From positions 2,751,501-2,815,500 of the forward strand of contig NZ_CP066786.1 in NCBI RefSeq assembly GCF_016598595.1: a DNA stretch of 64,000 bases, written 5' to 3'. Position 1 is the stretch's first letter, and every line of letters begins with the position of its first letter. Under the pieces are notes generated by a model that ran no database searches, was not told where the DNA came from, and saw only the letters and a list, made by a program, of their open reading frames with translations. Position numbers and translations under genes: made by a program. Shown here in pieces: positions 36,312 through 57,380 of the stretch. Origin of the DNA: Martelella lutilitoris. GTDB lineage: Bacteria > Pseudomonadota > Alphaproteobacteria > Rhizobiales > Rhizobiaceae.

Positions 36312-37439
36312 TTAGGCCTCCTTCGACTTCCATGCACCGGCCACGCGCGCCTCATAGGCGGACTGACCGTTGTCGTTGATCTGCTTGGTGGTGTCGCGAC
36401 CCTTCATGGCATCGCGGAACGGATCGGCCTTGGCCGCGTCTTCGGCCAGGATGTCGAAGCGGGCGTCGATATAGGCCTCGCCCTTATCCTTGACCGCTTC
36501 ATCGCCGAGCTTGGCGACCACAGCCGCCTTGCGGATATCGGCGTCGGACAGACCGTCGGTCTTGATGTCCTTGGCGATGGTCTTGGCCGTGGCAATCAGA
36601 TCGGCGCGGGCCTGGACCTTGGCGTCGAGCGCCTTCTCGTCCAGAACCTTGCCCTTGAGATCGTCGATCGTGGCATCCTTCTGTGCCAGTTCGGCGTCCT
36701 TGGCTGCGATGGCGGAAGCATGCTTCGCTTCAGCATCAGCCAGCGCCTTTACGGCGACAGCCTTGTCGTTGGTGAGCTTTTCAATGGCCGCTGCGCCCGC
36801 GTCGGTCGTCTCGACCTGCAGCCCGTCAACCATCACTTTGCGCAGATTGTCGGCCATTTGGCCCTCCTTTTCGTCTGCTACGTGACCGGGGCGCATGCCC
36901 CACGAAAACGCACCGTCACCGATGCGAGCTTGAGAACCAGCGCGGCCGCGATCCACGACGGCGACATGGTTGATCCTGATATTCTGCTGAATGGCGTCGT
37001 AGGCCTCGCCCTGGGGCGTGGTGCCGCTCTCCCATTTGAGATCGCAGACATAGCCGGCGGAGAGTTCCCGCTTGCCGCCTTCGATCTGGTCGATGACTGC
37101 CTTGTCCATGACGATCATGGGCACACGGACATAATCTCCGTCGCGCGCCACCTCGTCACCTATCGCGCCGACCGCGAGCTTCTTCCAATTGTCGGCCGTC
37201 ACCATTTCGGCGGGATGGTCATTCGTCACCGGCTTGTGAGCGTATGAGCCCATGCTGTCCTGTGCGAATACCTGATCATCGGGCCGGTAGACACGAACCC
37301 GGTCCATGGCAGGCTTGCCCACTTCATACCCGGCATAGTCCTGAATGCCGGTGCGGGCGGTGCGGACCTCTGCCACGAGATAGCCGTCAGCGGTGCGCCG
37401 CGTGCCCGCAATTGGGGCCGCGTCGATGAACTGCATCAT
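36312..37439 (-). CDS. Prohead protease/scaffold, DUF2213-like
   Basis: The 375-residue protein has an N-terminal serine protease-like domain with the order YAHKPVTNDHPAEM, KRELSAGYVCDLKW and NHVAVVDRGRAG, giving His, Ser and a second His as in capsid maturation proteases. A coiled-coil scaffold-like region follows (about 205-290, KALADAEAKHASAIAAKDAELAQKD). It probably serves as both scaffold and protease for capsid assembly. Confidence 0.82.
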   Translation of the reverse strand: MMQFIDAAPIAGTRRTADGYLVAEVRTARTGIQDYAGYEVGKPAMDRVRVYRPDDQVFAQDSMGSYAHKPVTNDHPAEMVTADNWKKLAVGAIGDEVARDGDYVRVPMIVMDKAVIDQIEGGKRELSAGYVCDLKWESGTTPQGEAYDAIQQNIRINHVAVVDRGRAGSQARIGDGAFSWGMRPGHVADEKEGQMADNLRKVMVDGLQVETTDAGAAAIEKLTNDKAVAVKALADAEAKHASAIAAKDAELAQKDATIDDLKGKVLDEKALDAKVQARADLIATAKTIAKDIKTDGLSDADIRKAAVVAKLGDEAVKDKGEAYIDARFDILAEDAAKADPFRDAMKGRDTTKQINDNGQSAYEARVAGAWKSKEA

Positions 37440-37473: not shown

Positions 37474-37683
37474 ATGACAGACGAACAATTCCGCCAACTG
37501 AAAACCATGATCCTCGACCTTGGCGTCAAGGTTGAAGCGCTGGCCCTGGAAAACAGAGCCTTGCGCAAGGCGGTCGAAACCACCGAAGTCGTCTATCTCG
37601 AAGACAAGAAGGTCAGCACGACCGAACTCGAAGCCCTGCTTAGAACTCGATCACGCCCCGCGCCCAGCAACGACACCGAATAG
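37474..37683 (+). CDS. Small coiled-coil protein encoded against the head operon
   Basis: This 69-residue frame fills a 200-nt gap between two tightly packed minus-strand head genes and runs the other way. It overlaps the 3' end of the gp7-like gene by 44 nt. The sequence (MTDEQFRQLKTMILDLGVKV, then a heptad-rich helix LALENRALRKAVETTEVVYL) looks like real protein. No ribosome binding site precedes the ATG. A TTCTAT seven bases upstream could be a -10 that yields a leaderless mRNA. Possible moron or regulator. Confidence 0.5.
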   Translation: MTDEQFRQLKTMILDLGVKVEALALENRALRKAVETTEVVYLEDKKVSTTELEALLRTRSRPAPSNDTE

Positions 37684-38464
37684 GCTTTCCTGGCGGCAAT
37701 CCCTGTTCCGCTCCCGTTGCCTCGCCCCATTTGTACCGTTTGCCGTCAAGCGCCCTGTGACGCGATCTGACGCGTTCGTCGTGGCTGGTGCTCCAGACGT
37801 ACTCCGTCACCCCTGCTTGCCGCTGGCGTATCTCTGTGAGGTCAGCATTGGCCTTCCCCATCTGGTCCGACGCGATAAGCTTGGCCCGGCTCTCCGAAAC
37901 GCCGAACTCTTGCACCAATTGCTTGCGCAGCGTGGTCACCGAATTGCCCGCCACACTGTTCTGATAAACCGCCTGTTCGACTTTCTTGACCGTATCGTCT
38001 GCCAAGCTCTGGATGAGCGAAGCATTGCGGGCCGACGCCGTGGTCAGATAGTCGCCAAGGTCTTCCTGTGCGATCACGGCGCGGATATCGATCCCGATCG
38101 CCCGCTTGACCGCCGCGGCAAAATTCTCGGTATGCCGCTCCGCCTCAAGGTTCAAAATCCGGTCCACGGTGCTTTGCGCCACACGGACCAGAGAAGCCTT
38201 GAGAGCGTCGAGACGAACGAACCATGACCGATCAGCAGCGTCGACCGTGATGGCTTCCTGCGCCTTTCTCTGCGCCAAATCAGCCTCATAGGCCGGGATG
38301 ATGCTTTCCCGTACCTCTGCAGCCATTTGCCGAAGCATGGACCGCAGCGCCTTTTCATAGTCCCGCTCGGCAGAGAGACGAACCGGGATTTCCGGCAGAT
38401 AGGCGACAGTGCCAGACTTACGCCCGGCCCGCCGCCCCTGCTTGGCGAGTGAATAGCGGAGCAT
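37640..38464 (-). CDS. Minor head protein, SPP1 gp7 / Mu gpF-like
   Basis: The 274-residue protein ends with the gp7-type module: LIASDQMGKANADLTEIRQRQAGVTEYVWSTSHDERVRSRHRALDGKRYKWGEATGAEQGLPPGKPIRCRCWA. The helical N-terminal half binds the portal in known relatives. It directly follows the portal gene and shares one base with it. Confidence 0.9.
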   Translation of the reverse strand: MLRYSLAKQGRRAGRKSGTVAYLPEIPVRLSAERDYEKALRSMLRQMAAEVRESIIPAYEADLAQRKAQEAITVDAADRSWFVRLDALKASLVRVAQSTVDRILNLEAERHTENFAAAVKRAIGIDIRAVIAQEDLGDYLTTASARNASLIQSLADDTVKKVEQAVYQNSVAGNSVTTLRKQLVQEFGVSESRAKLIASDQMGKANADLTEIRQRQAGVTEYVWSTSHDERVRSRHRALDGKRYKWGEATGAEQGLPPGKPIRCRCWARGVIEF

Positions 38465-40293
38465 CAGGCCTCCTCAATTCCCTCATGCCAATCTTCCTTG
38501 ACCTCCTCGAAGATTTCCGGGCCGAGAATGATTTCGCCGGTGTACGGCTCGACATCGGCAAGGTCCGGCGCATCGGGGTCATAGCTGATCGTGATATGAG
38601 GCTGGTACTCGGGATGATCCCATGACGCGCCCTCTTCCTTCATCCACTCGTGACGCCATTTCAGTTCATTGGCTGCGAACAGCAGAACGCGGGCCTCGCC
38701 GAAGCGCTCCATCAGGCGCGCGCCGCCGCGACCGATCTTGATCTCGCTTTCCCATGCCTGCCCCATCTTCATCCAGTCAACCGGCGTGCGGCTGAAGGTG
38801 ACGGTGACATGCAGATCATTGGCCGGCAGCGTGGTCTTGAAGCCCTGCGACTTGGCCCACGCTATAATTTCGTCGGCGTTCAGCACGTCGCGGCGGACAT
38901 AGAGCGTTCGCGGCGCGGCGTCGGCCATATTCTGGTTCGGATCGTCGCTCGGGTCCGCGTTGGGATCATCCGCCGATGGATCGGACTGCCCACCAAGCGT
39001 CTTTTCCCAATCCGTCTTGTTCTCTTCCATGGCCTTCTCAAGGCCGGGATAGAAGCCGTCTTCGATCATCTGGTTCGACGCGACCTTGCGCAGCTCTGTG
39101 CTTGTCAGCCAGCCCGTGCGACCGATGATTTCCGCCGTCTCTGCCTTGGCCTTCGCGATCTCTGCCTTTTCCTTGTCCGACAACTGCCAGAGCGGAGACC
39201 ACGTGTACCAGACCTCCGGCGGGCGCGAACCGAGCGCGGATCGGATCAAGCATTCGTCCAGCCGATACAGCGCCGGCCCAATGATCAGCTTTTGCTCGCT
39301 CGCCAGCCGGTCGTAATAGTTCCGCAGATCACCGTCGCCCGTGGCGTTCATGCCGTCCGGGCTCTTGCCATAGAGGCGCGTTGCCGGGATGTCCGCATCC
39401 GCCGCAAGCAAGGTCATGAACCTGTCGAGCACGTCCGGCAGCGTGGCAAACGTGATCTGTTTGCGATCGTATTCCTCGTCCTTGTCGAGGAGGAGCATGC
39501 GATTGATGCCCTTCAGGAGGGCGGCAAGGCCGAAACGCTTCTTCAGACGATCCTCATAAGCCGGATCAAGAAGGTTGCCCATCAGATCCGGGTGACGGAT
39601 CACGTCGATGTTGGCCTCGAACACCAGAGAGGCGATGTTCGCGCTCGTCGCGTCCTTGTTCTTCAGGCTGGTGTATATCGCCTCGAACGTGCTATCGCCC
39701 CATCCCGAGTTCGCGCCGATCGTGAAACCCGGCTCCGGCCGTTCGTTGCCGATGAACCGCGAGAGCCTGGACGGGTGAATGCGCACAAGGCTCGTTGTGC
39801 TGCTCACCTGATAGTATTCCGGCTTGCCGTAGTTCTCCGACATGGGGTCTGTGTCGATGTCGCCCGCAACCATGTCGCGGCACGACAGCACCGTCAGATA
39901 CTTGAGCCCGCCCTTCTTGACGCGATCGACTTCAAGCGGCTCCTCAAGGTTCTGATCGCCCGTGCCGGCGAAGATCGCAGCACCGCCCCACAGACGAGCT
40001 TTGCAGCGCGCTTCATAGAGCTTTTGCCAGTAGCCGAGCCGCTTTTCTTCGTCCTCGATAAGCGTGATCTGCTCTTGCTTGGCCTGCCAATCACGGCCCT
40101 CGCGAACGCTATCCAGCGCCGGAATGTCGATGATCTTGCGCGCCAGCGCGTTCGACCGGTACAGCGCCATGATCTGGAGATCGTCCAGATAGTTCATGGA
40201 ATAGCTCGCCGTCGCCATCTTGTCGCGAAGCGGATCGCCGAGCCCGGCAATCATGCTTTCGAGCCCGTCGAAGCTCATCATCTTAGCGGCCAT
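38464..40293 (-). CDS. Portal protein (DUF1073-like) fused to an Acb1-type 2H phosphoesterase
   Basis: The first ~440 residues of this 609-residue protein are a DUF1073-type portal (RSNALARKIIDIPALDSVREGRDW; RIHPSRLSRFIG; FATLPDVLDRFMTLLAADADIPATRLYG). After an acidic linker rich in Asp, Pro and Asn (about 430-455) comes a small domain with two HxT motifs, HVT at 495-497 and HIT at 566-568. That is the 2H phosphodiesterase signature. T4 Acb1, which destroys CBASS cyclic-nucleotide signals, has the same motifs with near-identical spacing. Packaged portals could thus carry an anti-defence enzyme; activity is inferred. Confidence 0.88.
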   Translation of the reverse strand: MAAKMMSFDGLESMIAGLGDPLRDKMATASYSMNYLDDLQIMALYRSNALARKIIDIPALDSVREGRDWQAKQEQITLIEDEEKRLGYWQKLYEARCKARLWGGAAIFAGTGDQNLEEPLEVDRVKKGGLKYLTVLSCRDMVAGDIDTDPMSENYGKPEYYQVSSTTSLVRIHPSRLSRFIGNERPEPGFTIGANSGWGDSTFEAIYTSLKNKDATSANIASLVFEANIDVIRHPDLMGNLLDPAYEDRLKKRFGLAALLKGINRMLLLDKDEEYDRKQITFATLPDVLDRFMTLLAADADIPATRLYGKSPDGMNATGDGDLRNYYDRLASEQKLIIGPALYRLDECLIRSALGSRPPEVWYTWSPLWQLSDKEKAEIAKAKAETAEIIGRTGWLTSTELRKVASNQMIEDGFYPGLEKAMEENKTDWEKTLGGQSDPSADDPNADPSDDPNQNMADAAPRTLYVRRDVLNADEIIAWAKSQGFKTTLPANDLHVTVTFSRTPVDWMKMGQAWESEIKIGRGGARLMERFGEARVLLFAANELKWRHEWMKEEGASWDHPEYQPHITISYDPDAPDLADVEPYTGEIILGPEIFEEVKEDWHEGIEEA

Positions 40294-40432
40294 ATTTGCC
40301 CCTTATGTTCGGCGGGTTCTTGATCGTGTCTTTGATGACGGCCGGCGCGATCTTGAGAACGCCTTTCACGCCCTCGCGCTTCCTGGCTTCCTCGATCATC
40401 TTCCGCCGTTTGAGGCAGGCTGCACAAACCAT
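40283..40432 (-). CDS. 49-residue CxxC microprotein between terminase and portal
   Basis: The ATG at 40432 overlaps the terminase stop (TGATG) and the TAA overlaps the portal start by 11 bases, so the frame fits the operon exactly. The product begins MVCAACLKRRKMIEEARKRE and ends NIRGKYGR. It is strongly basic, with a single CxxC that could bind zinc as a dimer. No homologous family recognised; DNA or terminase interaction is possible. Confidence 0.65.
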   Translation of the reverse strand: MVCAACLKRRKMIEEARKREGVKGVLKIAPAVIKDTIKNPPNIRGKYGR

Positions 40433-41760
40433 CAGAGGCTTTCCAATGTGTAGGTCGAACCGGTCAGCATCAGTTCAGTGAGCGCCCATACCCCGGCGTC
40501 GGCCCGGTCAGGCGATCCCTCACCGATATAGCCCGATGTCGTGAAATTGCACTGCTGGTCTTCAAGGTCAGCGAACACACCGACATGATGAACCTTGCCC
40601 TGCTCGTAGAGTGCACTGATCGGCTCGGCACGAACCACCTTGCCCCGACTCGCGACAACCTCTTTGAACGATGCGTTTCGATCAGCCGTTGCGACGGTGA
40701 AGCGAACCATATCGCCACCGAAATTTCGCTCTCCGACAATCCGGTCAGCGCCCCAACGGTGATAGAGATCAACCGCCCTACGCCCCCATCCTTCAGGGGA
40801 CATGTTCACGGTCTCGTCGGCCAAAATATATCCGTGACCGTCAACACCCTTGCCCGCGACAATGATGCCAATGTCATCGCCCTGCCCGTCGCCGCGCGTC
40901 CCGGATGGGTCTACAGCGACGACAATGCGCTGCATGCGCGGCGCTTCCTTGACGCGAAGACTGTCGATCCCCGGCATAACCCGGCCATCAGGCGCTTTCC
41001 GATCCTCAAGAGACCAAAGCGCCCCGCTGACCTCGCTTGCCCATTCTCCTGCCTCAAACCGAAGCCGCTTTGCCGCAGACATGGACGCCAGAACGTCGAA
41101 ATATTCCCCCGGCAGATTGTCGGCGTTGTCCACCGGATTGATCCGCATCTCTACATAATCGTCCGGGTTCGCCAGCGCTTCTTTCGTCCCTGGTTTTATC
41201 TTCGAGCGGAAAAGCTGAAAGCTCCAATGCAGCTTTGAAGGCGGATTGCAGTCAAAGAACGCCTTGAGCCGGAGAAACATCCGCCCCGTCGCAGCCGCTA
41301 TCTCGGGCGCTAGTTCGCATTTCTGCGCCAAGCGAGACATTGCCATTTCAACCGAAGCCCATGGGATTTGTGAACTCTCGTTGAAATAGAGCGTCACATA
41401 TTCCTGGCCAAGGATCTTCTCGACCCGCTCCTTATCGTCCAGCCCGCCAATCCAGACCTGCGATCCGTTAGGAAGTTCGACATAGAAATCTGTCTTATCG
41501 AACCGGACTGTCAGGCCCGGAAAGCACAACTTCAACACCTTCGGCAGCGTATCGGACCAAATCGAAGTCTTGGCGTGATTGAAGCGAAACCGGAATATCG
41601 CATGCCGAGAACCCGGCGCGTTGATCGCCCGCTGGATTATCGCCCGCACAAGCAGGAACGTCTTTCCCGATCGCGAGCCTCCGCGAAGCATCACATTGCG
41701 CGCCGGTCCAGCGAGGAGACGATTTGCCTCTCTCTGCTTTTCCGTCAGCGTTGCTGTCAC
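40432..41760 (-). CDS. Terminase large subunit
   Basis: The 442-residue packaging motor has an ATPase domain with Walker A RGGSRSGKTFLL (about residues 33-44) and Walker B-like YVTLYFNESSQIPW. A nuclease domain of the RNase H fold follows, starting IVVAVDPSGTRGDGQGDDIG. Length and order fit phage terminases that work with the adjacent small subunit. Confidence 0.93.
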   Translation of the reverse strand: MTATLTEKQREANRLLAGPARNVMLRGGSRSGKTFLLVRAIIQRAINAPGSRHAIFRFRFNHAKTSIWSDTLPKVLKLCFPGLTVRFDKTDFYVELPNGSQVWIGGLDDKERVEKILGQEYVTLYFNESSQIPWASVEMAMSRLAQKCELAPEIAAATGRMFLRLKAFFDCNPPSKLHWSFQLFRSKIKPGTKEALANPDDYVEMRINPVDNADNLPGEYFDVLASMSAAKRLRFEAGEWASEVSGALWSLEDRKAPDGRVMPGIDSLRVKEAPRMQRIVVAVDPSGTRGDGQGDDIGIIVAGKGVDGHGYILADETVNMSPEGWGRRAVDLYHRWGADRIVGERNFGGDMVRFTVATADRNASFKEVVASRGKVVRAEPISALYEQGKVHHVGVFADLEDQQCNFTTSGYIGEGSPDRADAGVWALTELMLTGSTYTLESL

Positions 41761-42287
41761 AGTTCCGCGTCTTCCTTGCTGACGATCAATGCCAATGGAC
41801 CGCCGTCCTTACCCGTGTGCTCATGGCGCTCGATGAACATGCCGAGATGCTTGGCCAGCTTCTCAAGCGCGCTGTTCTTGTCCCAAAGCTTGATCTTGTG
41901 GACGTGCTCGACAACGGGCCGGCCTTCCTCGTCCTTCTCGCCCGTCGGCTTTGAAACCACCTCGATTGCCGCAACAGACGCGGCGAAATCATCATCCCAT
42001 TGTGATGGCGGCAGGATCGCATCGCCCGCAGTGAACGCCTTCCGGATGTCACCGAAGCCAAGCCGCGCCATTTCCTTCAGGACGCGTTCGACCGTCGCCT
42101 CTGCTCGATCTGCGCCCTTGGCGACAAGCTCATCTACACGCGCCTGGATTTTGACATTTTTTGACAGTCGAGTAGCCGACGCCGGGCTGTCTTTGTACCC
42201 CGCGTTGACATAGGCGTCACCAACAGCAAGCCCTTCTGCTAGCCCCTGCGCGAAGGATTCCCATTTCGCGTTCTTCAAAACCGGCAT
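41757..42287 (-). CDS. Terminase small subunit
   Basis: The 176-residue protein has an N-terminal helix-turn-helix (SFAQGLAEGLAVGDAYVNAGYKDSPASATRLSKNVKIQARVDEL) for DNA recognition and a central oligomerisation part. It overlaps the large subunit gene by ATGA. The divergent BrnA-like gene starts 89 nt away, so the late promoter for packaging and head genes could lie there or further upstream. Confidence 0.88.
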   Translation of the reverse strand: MPVLKNAKWESFAQGLAEGLAVGDAYVNAGYKDSPASATRLSKNVKIQARVDELVAKGADRAEATVERVLKEMARLGFGDIRKAFTAGDAILPPSQWDDDFAASVAAIEVVSKPTGEKDEEGRPVVEHVHKIKLWDKNSALEKLAKHLGMFIERHEHTGKDGGPLALIVSKEDAEL

Positions 42288-43061: not shown

Positions 43062-43137
43062 TGGAGCCGCCACGAGGATTCGAACCCCGGACATGTGAAT
43101 TACAAAGACACCGCTCTACCTACTGAGCTATGACGGC
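43062..43137 (-). tRNA. Phage tRNA-Thr (UGU)
   Basis: The 76-nt cloverleaf has acceptor GCCGTCA/TGGCGGC, a normal D arm (GCTCAGTAGGTAGAGC), anticodon loop TTTGTAA with UGU, T loop TTCGAAT and encoded CCA. The two anticodon-stem pairs nearest the loop are mismatched, which is unusual. It lies four bases from the preceding tRNA, on the same strand. Confidence 0.8.
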
Positions 43138-44344: not shown

Positions 44345-44784
44345 GCCACCCTCTCATCATCGAACAGATCTGGCTCGATCGCCCGGTCGCCAAACTCCCG
44401 ATAGACATGCCGGAATATCCCGGCGGCGATGTAGTGCCGGCGCGACATGATCGCATCCGCGCCGCGCGCCTCCCACTGTATTTGACCCACCTCGCACCGG
44501 TCGAACACGGCAAGCCAGCGGCTCGCGTCGTCCTCGATCAGTTCTCGATTGGCAAGCACCAGATCCGACACGGCATACAGCAGGCTGTCATGCAGCCGCC
44601 CGGCGTTGTTCTCTGTCTCCGCCACGGTGGACAGCACCAGCCGGAAATGCCCCTCGCCGTGCATCTCGTATATCCGCCTCAGGCAGGCCGTGGCGCGCGT
44701 TTCCTTCACCGACAGTCGATCGCTCTTGCCGACGATGCGGATGCCGTACTCGGCGCATATTGCGGCGATATGGGCGTCTGTCAT
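44341..44784 (-). CDS. Hypothetical phage protein
   Basis: The ATG at 44784 overlaps the methyltransferase stop and gives 147 residues, mostly helical: CLRRIYEMHGEGHFRLVLSTVAETENNAGRLHDSLLYAVSDLV, ending REFGDRAIEPDLFDDE. Helical proteins of this kind accompany phage methyltransferases in Rhizobiales phages, but I know no function. Confidence 0.65.
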   Translation of the reverse strand: MTDAHIAAICAEYGIRIVGKSDRLSVKETRATACLRRIYEMHGEGHFRLVLSTVAETENNAGRLHDSLLYAVSDLVLANRELIEDDASRWLAVFDRCEVGQIQWEARGADAIMSRRHYIAAGIFRHVYREFGDRAIEPDLFDDERVA

Positions 44785-46232
44785 GCGCAAAGTTCCTTCT
44801 GCAAATCTTCCACATACTGGATGCGCTCTCCGATGTACTCCATGACGTTGACGGCCATTGAGTTCCCGAGTGCCTTATAGCGCGGCCCGTCGGGGCAATT
44901 CTCGGCGGCTTTACCGCGCCACGGAATGAGCGTGAAATCGTCGGGGAACGCCTGCAGCCGCTCGCACTCGCGCGGTGTCAGTCGGCGCACGGCCCATGGC
45001 GCGGCGACATATGACCGCGACGAACCACCGGACCCGGCACGGATATTGGCGGTTTCGTGCGGTCCTTCGAATTGCGCGCCGCCCTCGCGACCGCGCATGT
45101 CATAGGCAACGGCAGAGTGTCCACCACCGTGAGCGGCCCTGAGCGAGCCTGGGACTTCATCGATGGAAAATCCTGTATCACCTGCCGCCTTGCAGTCAAA
45201 AGCCAGGGCAAGGGCAACGCAAGCCTGCCCTTGCCCTGGCTTGCCGCCGCCGGTCGTCAGTTGTGACGAAACGGTGCCATCACCGCCGCATAAACGAACC
45301 TCCGAACGGCTATTCTCGGCGAAGGCAACCGCCTGCACTTCCGCACGCGCTTCTATCGTATAAGCAACGCCCTCTTGCACGCCTGCGCCATCCGGCCCGC
45401 TATTCGGGTTTTCTCGCAATGCGCCGGCTTGAATTGCATGGGCAATAAGGGTTTCCGTTTCGGCATCATTTGACCGTTGGCCGTTGACGCTGACGCTGAC
45501 GCAATATGATGTTGCACCGCAATTGGTGACAAGCCCACCGTCTAGATCGAAGTCTGTTCCAAGTCCGCCACCGCCTTTAGTGCGTGCGCTAATTGTTGGT
45601 GCAACTCTTTCCCGCGTTTTTCGGCGCGGCGCAGGATTCCCGCGCATGCTTTCGGGGTCAAGTAATACCGCTGCGGCAGGTCGCCAGTCTCCAAGATATC
45701 CGACAACGAACACACGGCGTCTGCGCTGGGGGACTGCGCCTGAAAAGCGTTGTGTTCGGATAAACTGAGCGTCAAGCACTCGCCAGGCCGCATGATACCC
45801 GCATTCTTCCAGCCCCCGGATGAAGGTGCCAAAGTCCCTTCCCCCGTTCGATGACAAGACACCGGGTACGTTTTCCCATACCACCCATCGGGGCCGATAT
45901 CGTTGAGCAATGGAAAGATAGGTGAGCATGAGGTTTCCGCGAGGGTCAGCAAGTCCCTTGCGAAGTCCGGCGATTGAGAAGCTTTGGCAGGGTGTTCCGC
46001 CGACAAGAAGGTCAATTGCATAATCGGGCCAATCCTTAAATTTGGTCATGTCGCCGAGGTTCGGGACGCCGTTTGTTGCCAGCGGCTCACCCGGCATATT
46101 CGAGCCGTAGTGATGCGCCAAAACGGCAGACGGGAATTTCTCGATTTCGGAGAATGCGACCGGCGACCACCCGAGCGGATGCCAAGCCTGCGTTGCCGCT
46201 TCTATGCCGGAACAAACGGACAGATACCTCAT
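44781..46232 (-). CDS. DNA (cytosine-5-) methyltransferase
   Basis: The 483-residue enzyme has all C5 methyltransferase motifs in order: I (LSVCSGIEAATQAWHPLGW), IV with catalytic Cys82 (GGTPCQSFS), VI (WENVPG), VIII (PQRRRRVFVVG), IX (RRLTPRECERLQAFPDDFTLIP) and X (YKALGNSMAVNVMEYIG). The target-recognition region (about 200-400) is long, Gly-rich and irregular. No restriction partner is nearby, so it probably shields phage DNA from host restriction. Confidence 0.92.
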   Translation of the reverse strand: MRYLSVCSGIEAATQAWHPLGWSPVAFSEIEKFPSAVLAHHYGSNMPGEPLATNGVPNLGDMTKFKDWPDYAIDLLVGGTPCQSFSIAGLRKGLADPRGNLMLTYLSIAQRYRPRWVVWENVPGVLSSNGGRDFGTFIRGLEECGYHAAWRVLDAQFIRTQRFSGAVPQRRRRVFVVGYLGDWRPAAAVLLDPESMRGNPAPRRKTRERVAPTISARTKGGGGLGTDFDLDGGLVTNCGATSYCVSVSVNGQRSNDAETETLIAHAIQAGALRENPNSGPDGAGVQEGVAYTIEARAEVQAVAFAENSRSEVRLCGGDGTVSSQLTTGGGKPGQGQACVALALAFDCKAAGDTGFSIDEVPGSLRAAHGGGHSAVAYDMRGREGGAQFEGPHETANIRAGSGGSSRSYVAAPWAVRRLTPRECERLQAFPDDFTLIPWRGKAAENCPDGPRYKALGNSMAVNVMEYIGERIQYVEDLQKELCA

Positions 46233-47052: not shown

Positions 47053-48485
47053 GCGAAAAGCTCCTCGCTGTTCTTCTTCTGCTTGAATGTCGGGCCGAAG
47101 CTGGTTGTCGCGCCGTGCCATTCGATGTCCTTGCGGCGCGGAAACTCGCTCTCCCGGGACAGGGACAGGATCAGTTCGGCCCGGCCCTCAGTCTTGCGCA
47201 TGGCCTCGTCCCATATGTCGTGATCCGCCGTGCCTTCTTCCGGCTCCATGCCGGCGAGGATCGGCCGCACATTGAACGGGATAAGAACCTGGTCCGCGTC
47301 CTTGTCCATGTTGCCGACCAGATCCTGATAGTTCGGCCTGCGGTTCATGGCGGTGTAGATGCGATCGCGAAACGAGCGGCCCGGATAGTCGCCGAAGGTC
47401 GCCTTTTTCAGATGCGTCACGGCGATGATCGGGATTTCGTGCTTCATCGCCATGTCTTTGAGACGTGACGTAGCGCGCTGCCCCTTCTTCCAGTCCTCGT
47501 CAAGATCGAGCTTTCCGCTCCATTCCAGCTTGCCGATATGGTCCAGGAAATAGGCCTCCAGCCCGTACTCACCCTTGAGGCGCGTGATCCGCTCGTCTAG
47601 CCTGTCGAGCGTGAGGCGCTGGCAATTGATCTCGGCCACCTTCAGCCGCTTCATCTCGGCAGAGGCACGGACAACTTCGTCCATCTCGATCGGGCTCAGG
47701 CTCCCGCGCTTCTGGCGTGTGGCGGATATCCCGGTGCGCCGGGCGATCTCGCGGCGGATAAGCTGGTCGCGCGGCATCTCCCCGCTGTTGCCCGCCACGA
47801 CATGGTTTTCCGCCATGGTGAACAGCGTTTGCCATGTCAGGGCCGACTTGCCTTGCTTCACCCCCGCGCCGATGATGATCAATTGGCCGTTCTCCCACGG
47901 GCCGGTCAGCGCCATGATCTCATTCAAGCCAGGATCGAGCCCGAGGCGCGCTCCGCCCGTCGCGGCGTATTCCGTCCGGTCAAGCGTGCCGTCGATCATG
48001 TCGGCGAAGGAAACGGCCTTATGATTGCGGTCTTCGATCTCAGAAACGATGCGGGTCAGTTCTTCCCGCGCCGCGCGGATGCCGTCGGATATCTGACATT
48101 CGGCATTCGCCGCTGCATAGGTCAGCTCTTCCGCTGCAAGAATTGTCCGGCGGCGATCGGCAAGGCCCATCAGCGTGATCGCGTAGTCCGGCGCGTTGAT
48201 GATCGTCACCGCGTCGGCGGCGAGCCGCGCGAGATATTGCGCGATCGTCAATTCACCGATCTTGACATCGGACGGAAGTGACGACTTCACCGTGATCGGG
48301 TTAGCAACGCGTCCATCTTTCTTGATTGCTCGCATCGCCTCCCATATGCGGGCGTGAACCCCTTCCGAGAAATGATCCTCGCCAAGACGAGAGACGGCAT
48401 CGGCATCCAGCGCCTTGTTGTTCACCAGACATGCGCCGAGAAGAGCTTGCTCGACTTCGATGTTGGCCGGGAGTTCGATGTTCAT
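47049..48485 (-). CDS. Replicative DNA helicase, DnaB-like
   Basis: The 478-residue protein has a DnaB N-terminal domain (VEQALLGACLVNNKALDADAVSRLGEDHFSEGVHARIWEAM) and a RecA-like ATPase domain with Walker A GAGVKQGKSALTW. DnaB motifs such as HIGKLE and VTHLKKATF follow. It should open phage replication forks. No separate initiator or loader is recognised; the unassigned small genes further upstream are candidates. Confidence 0.9.
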   Translation of the reverse strand: MNIELPANIEVEQALLGACLVNNKALDADAVSRLGEDHFSEGVHARIWEAMRAIKKDGRVANPITVKSSLPSDVKIGELTIAQYLARLAADAVTIINAPDYAITLMGLADRRRTILAAEELTYAAANAECQISDGIRAAREELTRIVSEIEDRNHKAVSFADMIDGTLDRTEYAATGGARLGLDPGLNEIMALTGPWENGQLIIIGAGVKQGKSALTWQTLFTMAENHVVAGNSGEMPRDQLIRREIARRTGISATRQKRGSLSPIEMDEVVRASAEMKRLKVAEINCQRLTLDRLDERITRLKGEYGLEAYFLDHIGKLEWSGKLDLDEDWKKGQRATSRLKDMAMKHEIPIIAVTHLKKATFGDYPGRSFRDRIYTAMNRRPNYQDLVGNMDKDADQVLIPFNVRPILAGMEPEEGTADHDIWDEAMRKTEGRAELILSLSRESEFPRRKDIEWHGATTSFGPTFKQKKNSEELFA

Positions 48486-49702
48486 CCGCCTATCCCCGCA
48501 AACATAGGCAAAGGCTCAAGCCCGCTATCGTCAAGCTTCTCTACGACCTTCCAATCGTTGTTTATCCGGCGCTTTGCTATCTCGACGTATTCCGGGTTGA
48601 GTTCGATGAGATCGGCCCTGCGGCCGTGGCGCAGCGCTACGAGCGCCGTGGTGCCCGCGCCTCCGAACGGATCCAGCACCAGCCCGCCCTTTGGGCAGCC
48701 GGCCAGAATGCAGCGCTCTGCAAGCTCCGGCGGGAAAGTGGCAAAATGCGCTTCCGAAAACGGCTTCGTCGCAATCGGCCAGACCTGCACAGGCGCAGGC
48801 TCGTAATTGCGAAGGTTCCGCCCTTCCCCGCGCGGAGTGTCATCCAGCTTGGTGTGGTTTACCTGGCCGGCATGACGCGGCGAAGCTACGGCGCTGGCGC
48901 GTACCTTTCCGCGCGGACCACCGACTGCTTTCATCGTGCCGTTGGTCCTGGTTCCGCCATTGGCCCGGCCCGAGCCTTCCTGATTGTCAATGTCCTGCGA
49001 CCACCTGGCTAGCGATGACGACGCAGCGTTTTGCCGAACAGCCTCCCGGTCGTACCAGTACCGGGCTGACTTCGAGAGCAGAAAAACCTTTTCGTGGCTT
49101 GTGGCCGGCCTATCGCTGATGCTTTCCGGCATCGGGTTCGGCTTGGCCCAAATGATTTCAGAGCGCACCCACCAGCCTGCCTCCTGCAAGGCGATGGCGA
49201 GGCGGTTCGGCACCATGCACAGGTCTTTCGGCTTCAGATAGCCACCAGCCCCAATCCGACCCGCACTTTCTCGTCTCGATTGACGGTCACCGGTCGAAAA
49301 CTCGCCGCGTGGGTTGCTGATTGGCTGATAGATCGGCCCGACTGTCGAAAACGGTTTGTCGCGAAACGTCCGGTCGTCCGTGCCCGCCGCCTTCGTATCG
49401 GCAGCGCTGCGGCCGTTCGGCGCTGTCGCGTAGCAATCGCCATAGTTCAGCCACAGCGTGCCGGTGGGCTTCAGCACCCGGCGCACCGCTTCGAACACGG
49501 CAACCATCACCTCTAGATGCTCGCCAAGCGTCGGTTCCAGCCCGATCTGCCCTTCCACGCCATAATCGCGCAGGCCCCAATAGGGCGGCGAGGTCACAAC
49601 GCAGTCGACGCTGTCCGGCTCCATCCGGTTCAACTGGTCGATGCAATCGCCGGACCAAAAACGCACTCGGCCATCAAGGATTTCCGTTGGGTTTTCCATC
49701 AA
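48482..49702 (-). CDS. Site-specific DNA methyltransferase, beta class
   Basis: The 406-residue enzyme has motif IV first (TSPPYWGLRDYG, Ser38-Pro-Pro-Tyr41) and motif I last (VLDPFGGAGTTALVAL). This is the beta-class order shared with CcrM. An SPPY catalytic motif suggests N4-cytosine or N6-adenine methylation; the target sequence is unknown. It overlaps DnaB by ATGA. With the C5 enzyme it gives the phage two modification activities. Confidence 0.88.
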   Translation of the reverse strand: MMENPTEILDGRVRFWSGDCIDQLNRMEPDSVDCVVTSPPYWGLRDYGVEGQIGLEPTLGEHLEVMVAVFEAVRRVLKPTGTLWLNYGDCYATAPNGRSAADTKAAGTDDRTFRDKPFSTVGPIYQPISNPRGEFSTGDRQSRRESAGRIGAGGYLKPKDLCMVPNRLAIALQEAGWWVRSEIIWAKPNPMPESISDRPATSHEKVFLLSKSARYWYDREAVRQNAASSSLARWSQDIDNQEGSGRANGGTRTNGTMKAVGGPRGKVRASAVASPRHAGQVNHTKLDDTPRGEGRNLRNYEPAPVQVWPIATKPFSEAHFATFPPELAERCILAGCPKGGLVLDPFGGAGTTALVALRHGRRADLIELNPEYVEIAKRRINNDWKVVEKLDDSGLEPLPMFAGIGG

Positions 49703-55984: not shown

Positions 55985-56374
55985 ATGGCAGACCGTACCA
56001 ACTTCATCGAAGCGCATGAAATCCTGATGCTGGCGGAAAAGATCGGCGTCACGGTTTACCCCACTGTCATGCGTGGCCCGTTCAAGACGGCAATGGATGC
56101 GCTTGAGGCTTTGACTGGCGAAGACAAGGAAGTCTCATTCGCCCGCATCAGCTTCACCGACATTTCCACGAGCCAGGTCACGGAAGGCGATGACGTTTCC
56201 GAAGACATGGCCGCTGCATGGCTGAATAAGCACGAGCCGGACCCGGAGAACGATGACGTTCCTGCCTATGTCGAAGACACGGAAGCGCTCGAAGCATACG
56301 CCGAGGAATGGCACATCGAAAGCGGCTTCAATCCCATCAGGGAATACGGAACCTACAACGCAACGGCTCTTTGA
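55985..56374 (+). CDS. Hypothetical acidic phage protein
   Basis: The 129-residue protein begins three bases after the previous gene. The first half reads NFIEAHEILMLAEKIGVTVYPTVMRGPFKTAMDALEALTG. The second half is very acidic (KHEPDPENDDVPAYVEDTEALEAYAEEWHIE). Such charge is common in DNA-mimic anti-restriction proteins, but no specific match is seen. Confidence 0.6.
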   Translation: MADRTNFIEAHEILMLAEKIGVTVYPTVMRGPFKTAMDALEALTGEDKEVSFARISFTDISTSQVTEGDDVSEDMAAAWLNKHEPDPENDDVPAYVEDTEALEAYAEEWHIESGFNPIREYGTYNATAL

Positions 56375-56417
56375 GCCAGACCACCGCAGACAGAGCGGCT
56401 TGAGAGAGGATACGGCA

Positions 56418-57380
56418 ATGGCAGACAAGAAAGAGGTCGTTCACGCGATCAAGGGTTTCGACAGTGATATGAAGTGCCGTGGATACCAGTATGAGGTTGG
56501 CAATACCTACGAGCATGACGGCCCTGTTGTCGCATGTGAAAGTGGGTTTCATTCAATCGAAGGGCACCCGCTTGAGGTGTTCTGTTACTACGCCCCAGCG
56601 ACAAGCAAATTCTGTGACGTGATCGCGGAAGGCGAGATTGCCCGTCACTCTGATGACAGCAAGATCGCATCGGCCAAGATCACGATTGAAGCCGAAATCG
56701 GCCTGCCTGTTCTTGTCGAGCGCGCAGTAAAATGGGTGTTTGATCGCGCCAAGTGGTCTGAAGGTACGGTTGCGACTGGCGACAATGAAGGCGCAATCGC
56801 ATGGGGCGATCAGGGCGCGGCAACCGCATCGGGCCGTTGGGGCGCGGCAACCGCATCGGGCGATCAGGGCGCGGCAACCGCATCGGGCCGTTGGGGCGCG
56901 GCAACCGCATCGGGCGATCAGGGCGCGGCAACCGCATCGGGCCGTTGGGGCGCGGCAACCGCATCGGGCGATCAGGGCGCGGCAACCGCATCGGGCCGTT
57001 GGGGCGCGGCAACCGCATCGGGCCGTTGGGGCGCGGCAACCGCATCGGGCGATCAGGGCGCGGCAACCGCATCGGGCCGTTGGGGCGCGGCAACCGCATC
57101 GGGCGATCAGGGCGCGGCAACCGCATCGGGCCGTTGGGGCGCGGCAACCGCATCGGGCCGTTGGGGCGCGGCAACCGCATCGGGCCGTTGGGGCGCGGCA
57201 ACCGCATCGGGCGATCAGGGTAAAGCACGAGCGAAAGAAGGCTCCGCAATCTTCCTGGTAGAGCGCAACGACGATTACGAAATACTCAACGTCTTCGCCG
57301 GCATCGCAGGGCGAGACGGTCTGAAGGCTGACACTTGGTATCGCCTCAAAGACGGTAAGCCTGTGGAGGTCCAGTCATGA
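56418..57380 (+). CDS. DUF7666-type protein with fifteen 9-residue repeats
   Basis: The ATG at 56418 gives 320 residues. Residues 1-115 match the DUF7666 start (IKGFDSDMKCRGYQYEVGNTYEHDGPVVACESGFHSIEGHPLEVFCYYAP). From residue 133 to 267 follow fifteen units GAATASGRW or GAATASGDQ, nine of the first and six of the second, identical apart from the last two residues. A short C-terminal domain ends WYRLKDGKPVEVQS. The repeat should form a narrow beta-solenoid. Function unknown; it lies in the rightward early operon. Confidence 0.85.
   Translation: MADKKEVVHAIKGFDSDMKCRGYQYEVGNTYEHDGPVVACESGFHSIEGHPLEVFCYYAPATSKFCDVIAEGEIARHSDDSKIASAKITIEAEIGLPVLVERAVKWVFDRAKWSEGTVATGDNEGAIAWGDQGAATASGRWGAATASGDQGAATASGRWGAATASGDQGAATASGRWGAATASGDQGAATASGRWGAATASGRWGAATASGDQGAATASGRWGAATASGDQGAATASGRWGAATASGRWGAATASGRWGAATASGDQGKARAKEGSAIFLVERNDDYEILNVFAGIAGRDGLKADTWYRLKDGKPVEVQS
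56814..57218 (+). repeat. 27-bp tandem repeat array, 15 units
   Basis: Each unit is ggcgcggcaaccgcatcggg plus either ccgttgg or cgatcag, with no other visible change. Unit order by the last two residues is RW DQ RW DQ RW DQ RW RW DQ RW DQ RW RW RW DQ. Near-perfect identity implies recent expansion or gene conversion, and copy number should vary between strains. Confidence 0.95.

Follow-up and report, generated by a model that had tools for sequence, protein, structure and literature searches.

A phage portal protein carrying a C-terminal Acb1-type 2H phosphoesterase domain in Martelella lutilitoris

Genomic setting of the portal gene

The analysed window is a stretch of 64,000 nucleotides from the genome of Martelella lutilitoris (contig NZ_CP066786.1). 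It contains an open reading frame of 609 amino acids at 38464..40293, a frame that the preliminary description had delimited correctly without giving a strand and that lies on the minus strand. The genes for the terminase small subunit (41757..42287; PF03592) and the terminase large subunit (40432..41760; PF17289, phrog_979) are located upstream. Directly downstream, and having one base in common with the portal gene, lies the gene of a MuF / SPP1 gp7-type minor head protein (37640..38464; PF04233 with 1.6e-17, TIGR01641), and a head maturation protease is encoded at 36312..37439 (phrog_530, 1.7e-111), all on the minus strand. Further genes nearby encode the major capsid protein, tail sheath, tape measure, baseplate and endolysin, and by its predicted gene content the neighbourhood is that of a contractile-tailed phage. 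Since the gene is located on a megabase-range contig of a 4,787,079-base genome, it was taken to sit in a prophage. The host genome contained one Acb1 match at E ≤0.001, the portal-fused one.

Other features were observed in the same window. A tRNA-Thr (TGT) gene is found near the terminase genes (43062-43137), and two DNA methyltransferase genes, which perhaps act against restriction, adjoin a DnaB-like helicase gene (44781-46232 and 48482-49702). About 16 kb from the portal gene, a protein with DUF7666 and collagen-like repeats is encoded on the plus strand (56253-57380).

Domain architecture of the portal protein

Pfam analysis of the 609-aa protein identified a portal domain (PF06381, Phage_portal_3) at residues 40-388 (39130..40176, minus strand) with 361 bits against a cut-off of 33.8 (E 6.9e-108), in agreement with the portal identity proposed earlier. 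Besides the profile match, this part has the predicted fold of solved portals and a packaging gene context. Residues 424-459 (38917..39024, minus strand) form a predicted disordered linker (pLDDT <50) containing an acidic stretch, as had been described, and residues 462-604 (38482..38910, minus strand) matched the Acb1 profile PF23474 with 148.3 bits against a cut-off of 27 (E 1.6e-43). This match runs nearly end to end (profile positions 1-143 of 144), and the LigT_PEase and 2_5_RNA_ligase2 profiles scored under their cut-offs on the same protein. The structure of the domain was predicted as a 2H phosphoesterase fold with Acb1 as the nearest solved structure, the outcome of the fold check suggested in the preliminary description.

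The first HxT motif (HVT, residues 495-497, 38803..38811, minus strand) and the second (HIT, residues 566-568, 38590..38598, minus strand) lie 71 residues apart at the places given previously, and they align to H44/T46 and H113/T115 of T4 gp57B (Acb1), whose two histidines are 69 residues apart. When the domain was shuffled 200,000 times, a pair of HxT motifs 60-80 residues apart arose by chance in 0.34% of cases, and the figure was 0.36% for 20,000 shufflings of the entire protein, so the motifs by themselves are modest evidence for Acb1 identity. The profile score together with the predicted fold places the Acb1 domain far beyond chance. The identity proposed for the domain was thus corroborated by the Pfam match, the predicted fold, the complete catalytic tetrad and some of the pocket residues.

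The family PHROG 146, annotated as 'portal protein', spans residues 3-604 of the 609-aa frame, which shows that the whole portal and Acb1 architecture is a standing phage family. Among the best 120 of 2445 homologues the linker (residues 425-460) had a mean entropy of 2.25 bits, the highest of five stretches compared, and it forms a predicted disordered tether. The portal (residues 41-388) and the Acb1 domain (residues 461-604) were almost equally conserved (0.92 and 1.00 bits) among these homologues, which were chosen by full length. An internal start at codon 456, an ATG just ahead of the Acb1 domain that would give a free protein, was considered and rejected: a methionine occupies this codon in 12 of the best 120 of 2445 homologues, and no clear ribosome site was seen by eye.

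The best solved relative is the portal of cyanophage Pam3 (PDB 8hds), which holds 12 chains. Its sequence comprises 621 residues including the Acb1 domain, of which 442 are present in the structure used by Foldseek, and the Foldseek match reaches as far as residue 421. The Pam3 domain was consequently left unbuilt, being either flexible or cut off. By analogy, the protein of the window would form a dodecameric portal ring in the virion.

Catalytic tetrad and ligand pocket

The domain was aligned with T4 gp57B and other proteins, using the residue list in the available text of Hobbs et al. (PMC9117128). The T4 Acb1 residues Y12, H44, T46, H113 and T115 correspond to Y465, H495, T497, H566 and T568, so that the tetrad is intact, and both E141, which contacts adenine, and the lid tryptophan W147 are retained as E596 and W602. 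Two of the four base-stacking places are not kept in the sequence alignment, W74 being replaced by M528 and F107 by H560.

Residue counts were obtained from the best 120 of the 2445 homologues found, one of which (454 aa) had no Acb1 domain. In the 119 domain-bearing proteins the tetrad was HTHT in 108, HTHS in nine, HTST in one and HAHT in one, and the catalytic histidine pair was kept in 118, which indicates constraint on the domain. The lid tryptophan was kept in 98 of the same 119 and the E141 place was glutamate in 55, while the F107 place was occupied by His (80), Tyr (29) or Trp (10). Among 99 distinct portal-fused domains the W74 place was taken by one of Met, Val, Leu and Ile in 97 and by His in the other two; Trp or Phe never occurred there. 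The protein of the window and seven more distant phage portals had the tetrad HTHT in five of eight and HTHS in three, with the lid tryptophan in five of eight; F531, near M528 in sequence, was Phe in all eight and may take up the space left vacant. In a codon comparison, pN was lower for Acb1 than for the portal core across the 12 rows listed, a contrast biased by the choice of loci, which had been fetched by similarity to the Acb1 domain. On these sequence comparisons catalysis looks kept; since the pocket positions vary across the homologues, ligand binding, and with it base recognition, may differ from that of T4 Acb1.

Presence and absence of the Acb1 domain among portals

In the homologues inspected, the Acb1 domain stands at or close to the C-terminal end of the portal, and a closely related portal of another phage has no such domain. 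Rhizobium phage RHph_N28_2 (L020), a complete genome record with a named host, encodes a portal of 481 aa which is 88% identical over 442 residues to the domain-bearing portal L096 and has no Acb1 domain. It was likewise missing from four more records, whose matches broke off early and which were retrieved for that reason. In the order, PF06381 portals were found in 13 of 397 genomes, with Acb1 in four of the 13 and without it in nine. To the eye, the tail of the RHph_N28_2 portal looks similar to the short tail found after Acb1 in P0109. In another case (L013 / L165, genome G206) one TAG lies inside the Acb1 match and the last matched residue is also the last of the open frame; this copy may be shortened at its C-terminus.

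Other payloads in the Acb1 slot were sought in three PF06381 portals of the sample whose open frames are long (592, 817 and 888 aa, the last cut by the end of its locus), and this possibility was rejected: their extra length lies upstream of the portal match, they had no Acb1 profile match, and their tails were judged by eye.

Probable exchange among portals, and further carriers

The fusion was followed in 148 loci (L013-L160) fetched by Acb1 similarity, some of them being one contig fetched twice. Portal and Acb1 were in one frame in 130 loci and in separate frames in one; 11 had Acb1 only by the portal profile used, five, picked as such, had the portal only, and one had neither. For 94 distinct fused loci and the window, identities were compared over 4465 pairs, which are non-independent; the Acb1 domain may also differ in rate. 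The correlation of identity between portal and Acb1 was 0.36, against 0.75 between the two portal halves and 0.66 between the two Acb1 halves. In 13 of 40 pairs with Acb1 domains more than 85% identical the portals were below 60%, and in five of 26 pairs with portals above 85% the Acb1 domains were below 70%. For instance, L085 and L031 share 92% identity in Acb1, 41% in the portal and 49% in the next large shared downstream frame, and L120 and L015 share 92% in the portal, 60% in Acb1 and 83% in the corresponding downstream frame. Between L059 and L060 Acb1 agrees with the frame behind it (89%), whereas the portal disagrees, a pattern which reads in sequence as a single switch. The histories of portal and Acb1, as far as sequence identities record them, thus disagree, and the two opposite patterns would be hard to obtain without exchange.

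Acb1 was also found outside PF06381 portals. It lies behind a portal of a different family, PF04860, in L157 and in L079 and L158, the latter two being probably one element. An Acb1-like domain precedes a DUF2213 head maturation protease at its N-terminus in L149 (3770-5644) and, weakly, in L018 (1345-3003; 23.9 bits against 27), and the genome of L018 (G356) has a PF06381 portal without Acb1. ChaB, Acb1 and an XkdF-type protease (Pfam) share one open frame in L159 (4767-5846) and L160 (3224-4282), where the protease part is labelled DNA methyltransferase by phrog_1530 but Peptidase_S78_2 by Pfam. The fragment P0199 has Acb1 beside a prohead protease match. In L055 (4647-9644) an open frame of 1666 aa encodes a NUDIX domain and, close to the start of the frame, Acb1, with no further Pfam match at 0.001, and in P0092 (817 aa) and P0107 (795 aa) a portal with Acb1 is followed by an ADP-ribosyltransferase (PF03496). 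A domain tree was built from 127 sequences after removal of duplicates and of those shorter than 110 aa; the fusions to other carriers fell on several branches, many with weak support, down to 0.05. Recurrent fusion is therefore claimed from the different partner proteins rather than from the tree, and the predicted protein architectures show Acb1 fused to several kinds of head protein.

CBASS genes in the host and in sampled genomes

The SMODS nucleotidyltransferase profile, the one CD-NTase kind covered, gave no match in the host genome, and controls matched in 3 of 14 genomes. None of the four sampled genomes with a fused portal was among the 46 of 397 genomes with a SMODS match, which is uninformative at about 0.5 expected. 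A SAVED search of the host genome gave no match and was likewise uninformative, as the controls were silent too.

Proposed function of the fused domain

The protein is probably a portal which carries an accessory Acb1-type 2H phosphoesterase on its ring, acting on CBASS-type signals. The C-terminus of portals of this kind faces the capsid side. Up to 12 copies of the domain would hang from the portal inside the procapsid and head and would hydrolyse, without metal, the 3'-5' bonds of small cyclic oligonucleotides. They could act on the signal where late assembly takes place, in the infected cell; action in the next host, after arrival with the DNA, is somewhat more likely. As long as the domain stays attached within the head, the cytoplasm of the next cell is out of its reach; delivery would therefore depend on its release from the ring by cleavage, for which the head maturation protease, acting in the linker, is a candidate. 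The full scheme, in which a swappable virion cargo is exchanged among portals and head proteases, up to 12 copies are freed by the maturation protease, enter with the DNA and erase cyclic-nucleotide alarm signals, and the pocket is tuned to a signal other than that of T4, is speculative and on balance rather doubtful.

A serious contender, though we think it falls short of even chances, is a variant compatible with the preferred reading: the same anti-CBASS enzyme may work in the producing cell only, while portal subunits and open procapsids are cytoplasmic, the fusion serving to time and dose it with the late genes. Portals are late proteins, and no cleavage would be necessary. According to the available text of PMC9117128, T4 Acb1 becomes active about 15 min after infection, at the time of the late CBASS onset; this suits the variant and, for T4, undoes the contrast drawn in the preliminary description between a portal-borne enzyme and free early inhibitors. 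Fusion to two portal families and several head proteases, with ADP-ribosyltransferase or NUDIX neighbours, fits cargo better. ADP-ribosyltransferases and NUDIX domains on MuF proteins, portals and head proteases are read as packaged and injected in the accessible part of PMC9503650 (2022), and carriers of this kind would thus favour cargo over mere timing.

The domain could instead be a 2H phosphoesterase of the same fold acting on RNA, as an RNase or a processor of 2',3'-cyclic ends, with tRNA or other RNA as its target and either injection or late synthesis as its route. The fold is common to general 2H enzymes (LigT, Usb1), PHROG labels relatives 'RNA ligase' (phrog_755, 7.5e-22), the W74 and F107 places differ from T4 Acb1, and PMC5512222 (2017), which predates Acb1, offers in its available text an RNase role by analogy with PBECR-portal fusions. 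We nevertheless regard this as unlikely: among solved structures Acb1 is clearly the closest, the PF23474 match extends over the entire domain while both RNA-related 2H profiles stay below their cut-offs, and the matches to Tyr12 and the lid tryptophan are kept. Very improbable is a structural appendage, an enzyme fold that fills or steadies the portal crown or guides packaging with its activity irrelevant. Its position at or near the end of the portal would suit such a part, but the histidine pair is almost invariant in the homologues, most sampled PF06381 portals of the order do without the domain, it is not in the built Pam3 structure, and its history disagrees with that of the portal. The close sister portal of RHph_N28_2 also speaks against it, and with it against the help in assembly that the preliminary description had offered as an alternative.

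The gene is a true portal-Acb1 fusion, one of a large, previously noted class, and the idea of packaged counter-defence is already in print. The available text of PMC5512222 (2017) describes fusions of 2H domains with MuF or portal proteins, for which it proposes, besides the RNase role, degradation of nucleotides of counter-invader systems, and that of PMC9503650 (2022) takes such fusions to suggest packaging and injection, countering oligonucleotide signalling. Hobbs et al. 2022 (PMC9117128) reported nine further Acb1 proteins as active; the word 'portal' is absent from its available text. A search of open-licence literature by title and start of abstract found no experiment on a portal-fused Acb1. 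The available parts of PMC11780129, PMC11249213, PMC12629846, PMC9382816 and PMC7824862 had no bearing on portal-Acb1, PMC12287305 appears from its available part to concern an unrelated metallophosphoesterase, and a literature search for the BCSR5 phosphodiesterase gave no paper. Many homologues among the matches listed bear the NCBI/UniRef name 'anti-CBASS protein Acb1 family protein', so the 'anti-CBASS' name for such portals is already widespread in public databases. Should the domain prove both active and delivered, the virions of some phages would bring along a ready-made inhibitor of nucleotide signalling, in contrast to T4, whose free Acb1 becomes active during infection according to the available text of PMC9117128; many portals listed as structural would then also be counter-defence proteins.

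Comparison with known systems

T4-like Acb1 proteins (T4 gp57B; FBB1, PDB 7t26/7t27) resemble the domain in predicted fold, in the HxT/HxT tetrad and, by sequence alignment, in the equivalents of Tyr12, Glu141 and the lid Trp147. Identity to the free Acb1 proteins is low (25.0% to T2 57B, 30% to FBB1). T4-like Acb1 is a free protein, whereas the Acb1 of the window is part of a portal and has the equivalents of W74 and F107 changed. The fusions of 2H domains to portal and MuF proteins of Iyer, Aravind and colleagues (PMC5512222, PMC9503650), which the available texts describe as a class, have in words the same architecture and a similar proposed role, packaged counter-defence acting on nucleotide signals. 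The Pam3 portal has the same two-domain architecture (query residues 2-606), with HIS as its second motif in contrast to HIT in the protein of the window. The PHROG 146 portals of RHEph04, phiPSA1, Ssp-JY39 and other phages likewise consist of portal plus Acb1: 33 of 1383 matching phage records cover 80% or more of the query at one place, and identity ranges from 35.5 to 51.7% among the 32 phage rows listed.
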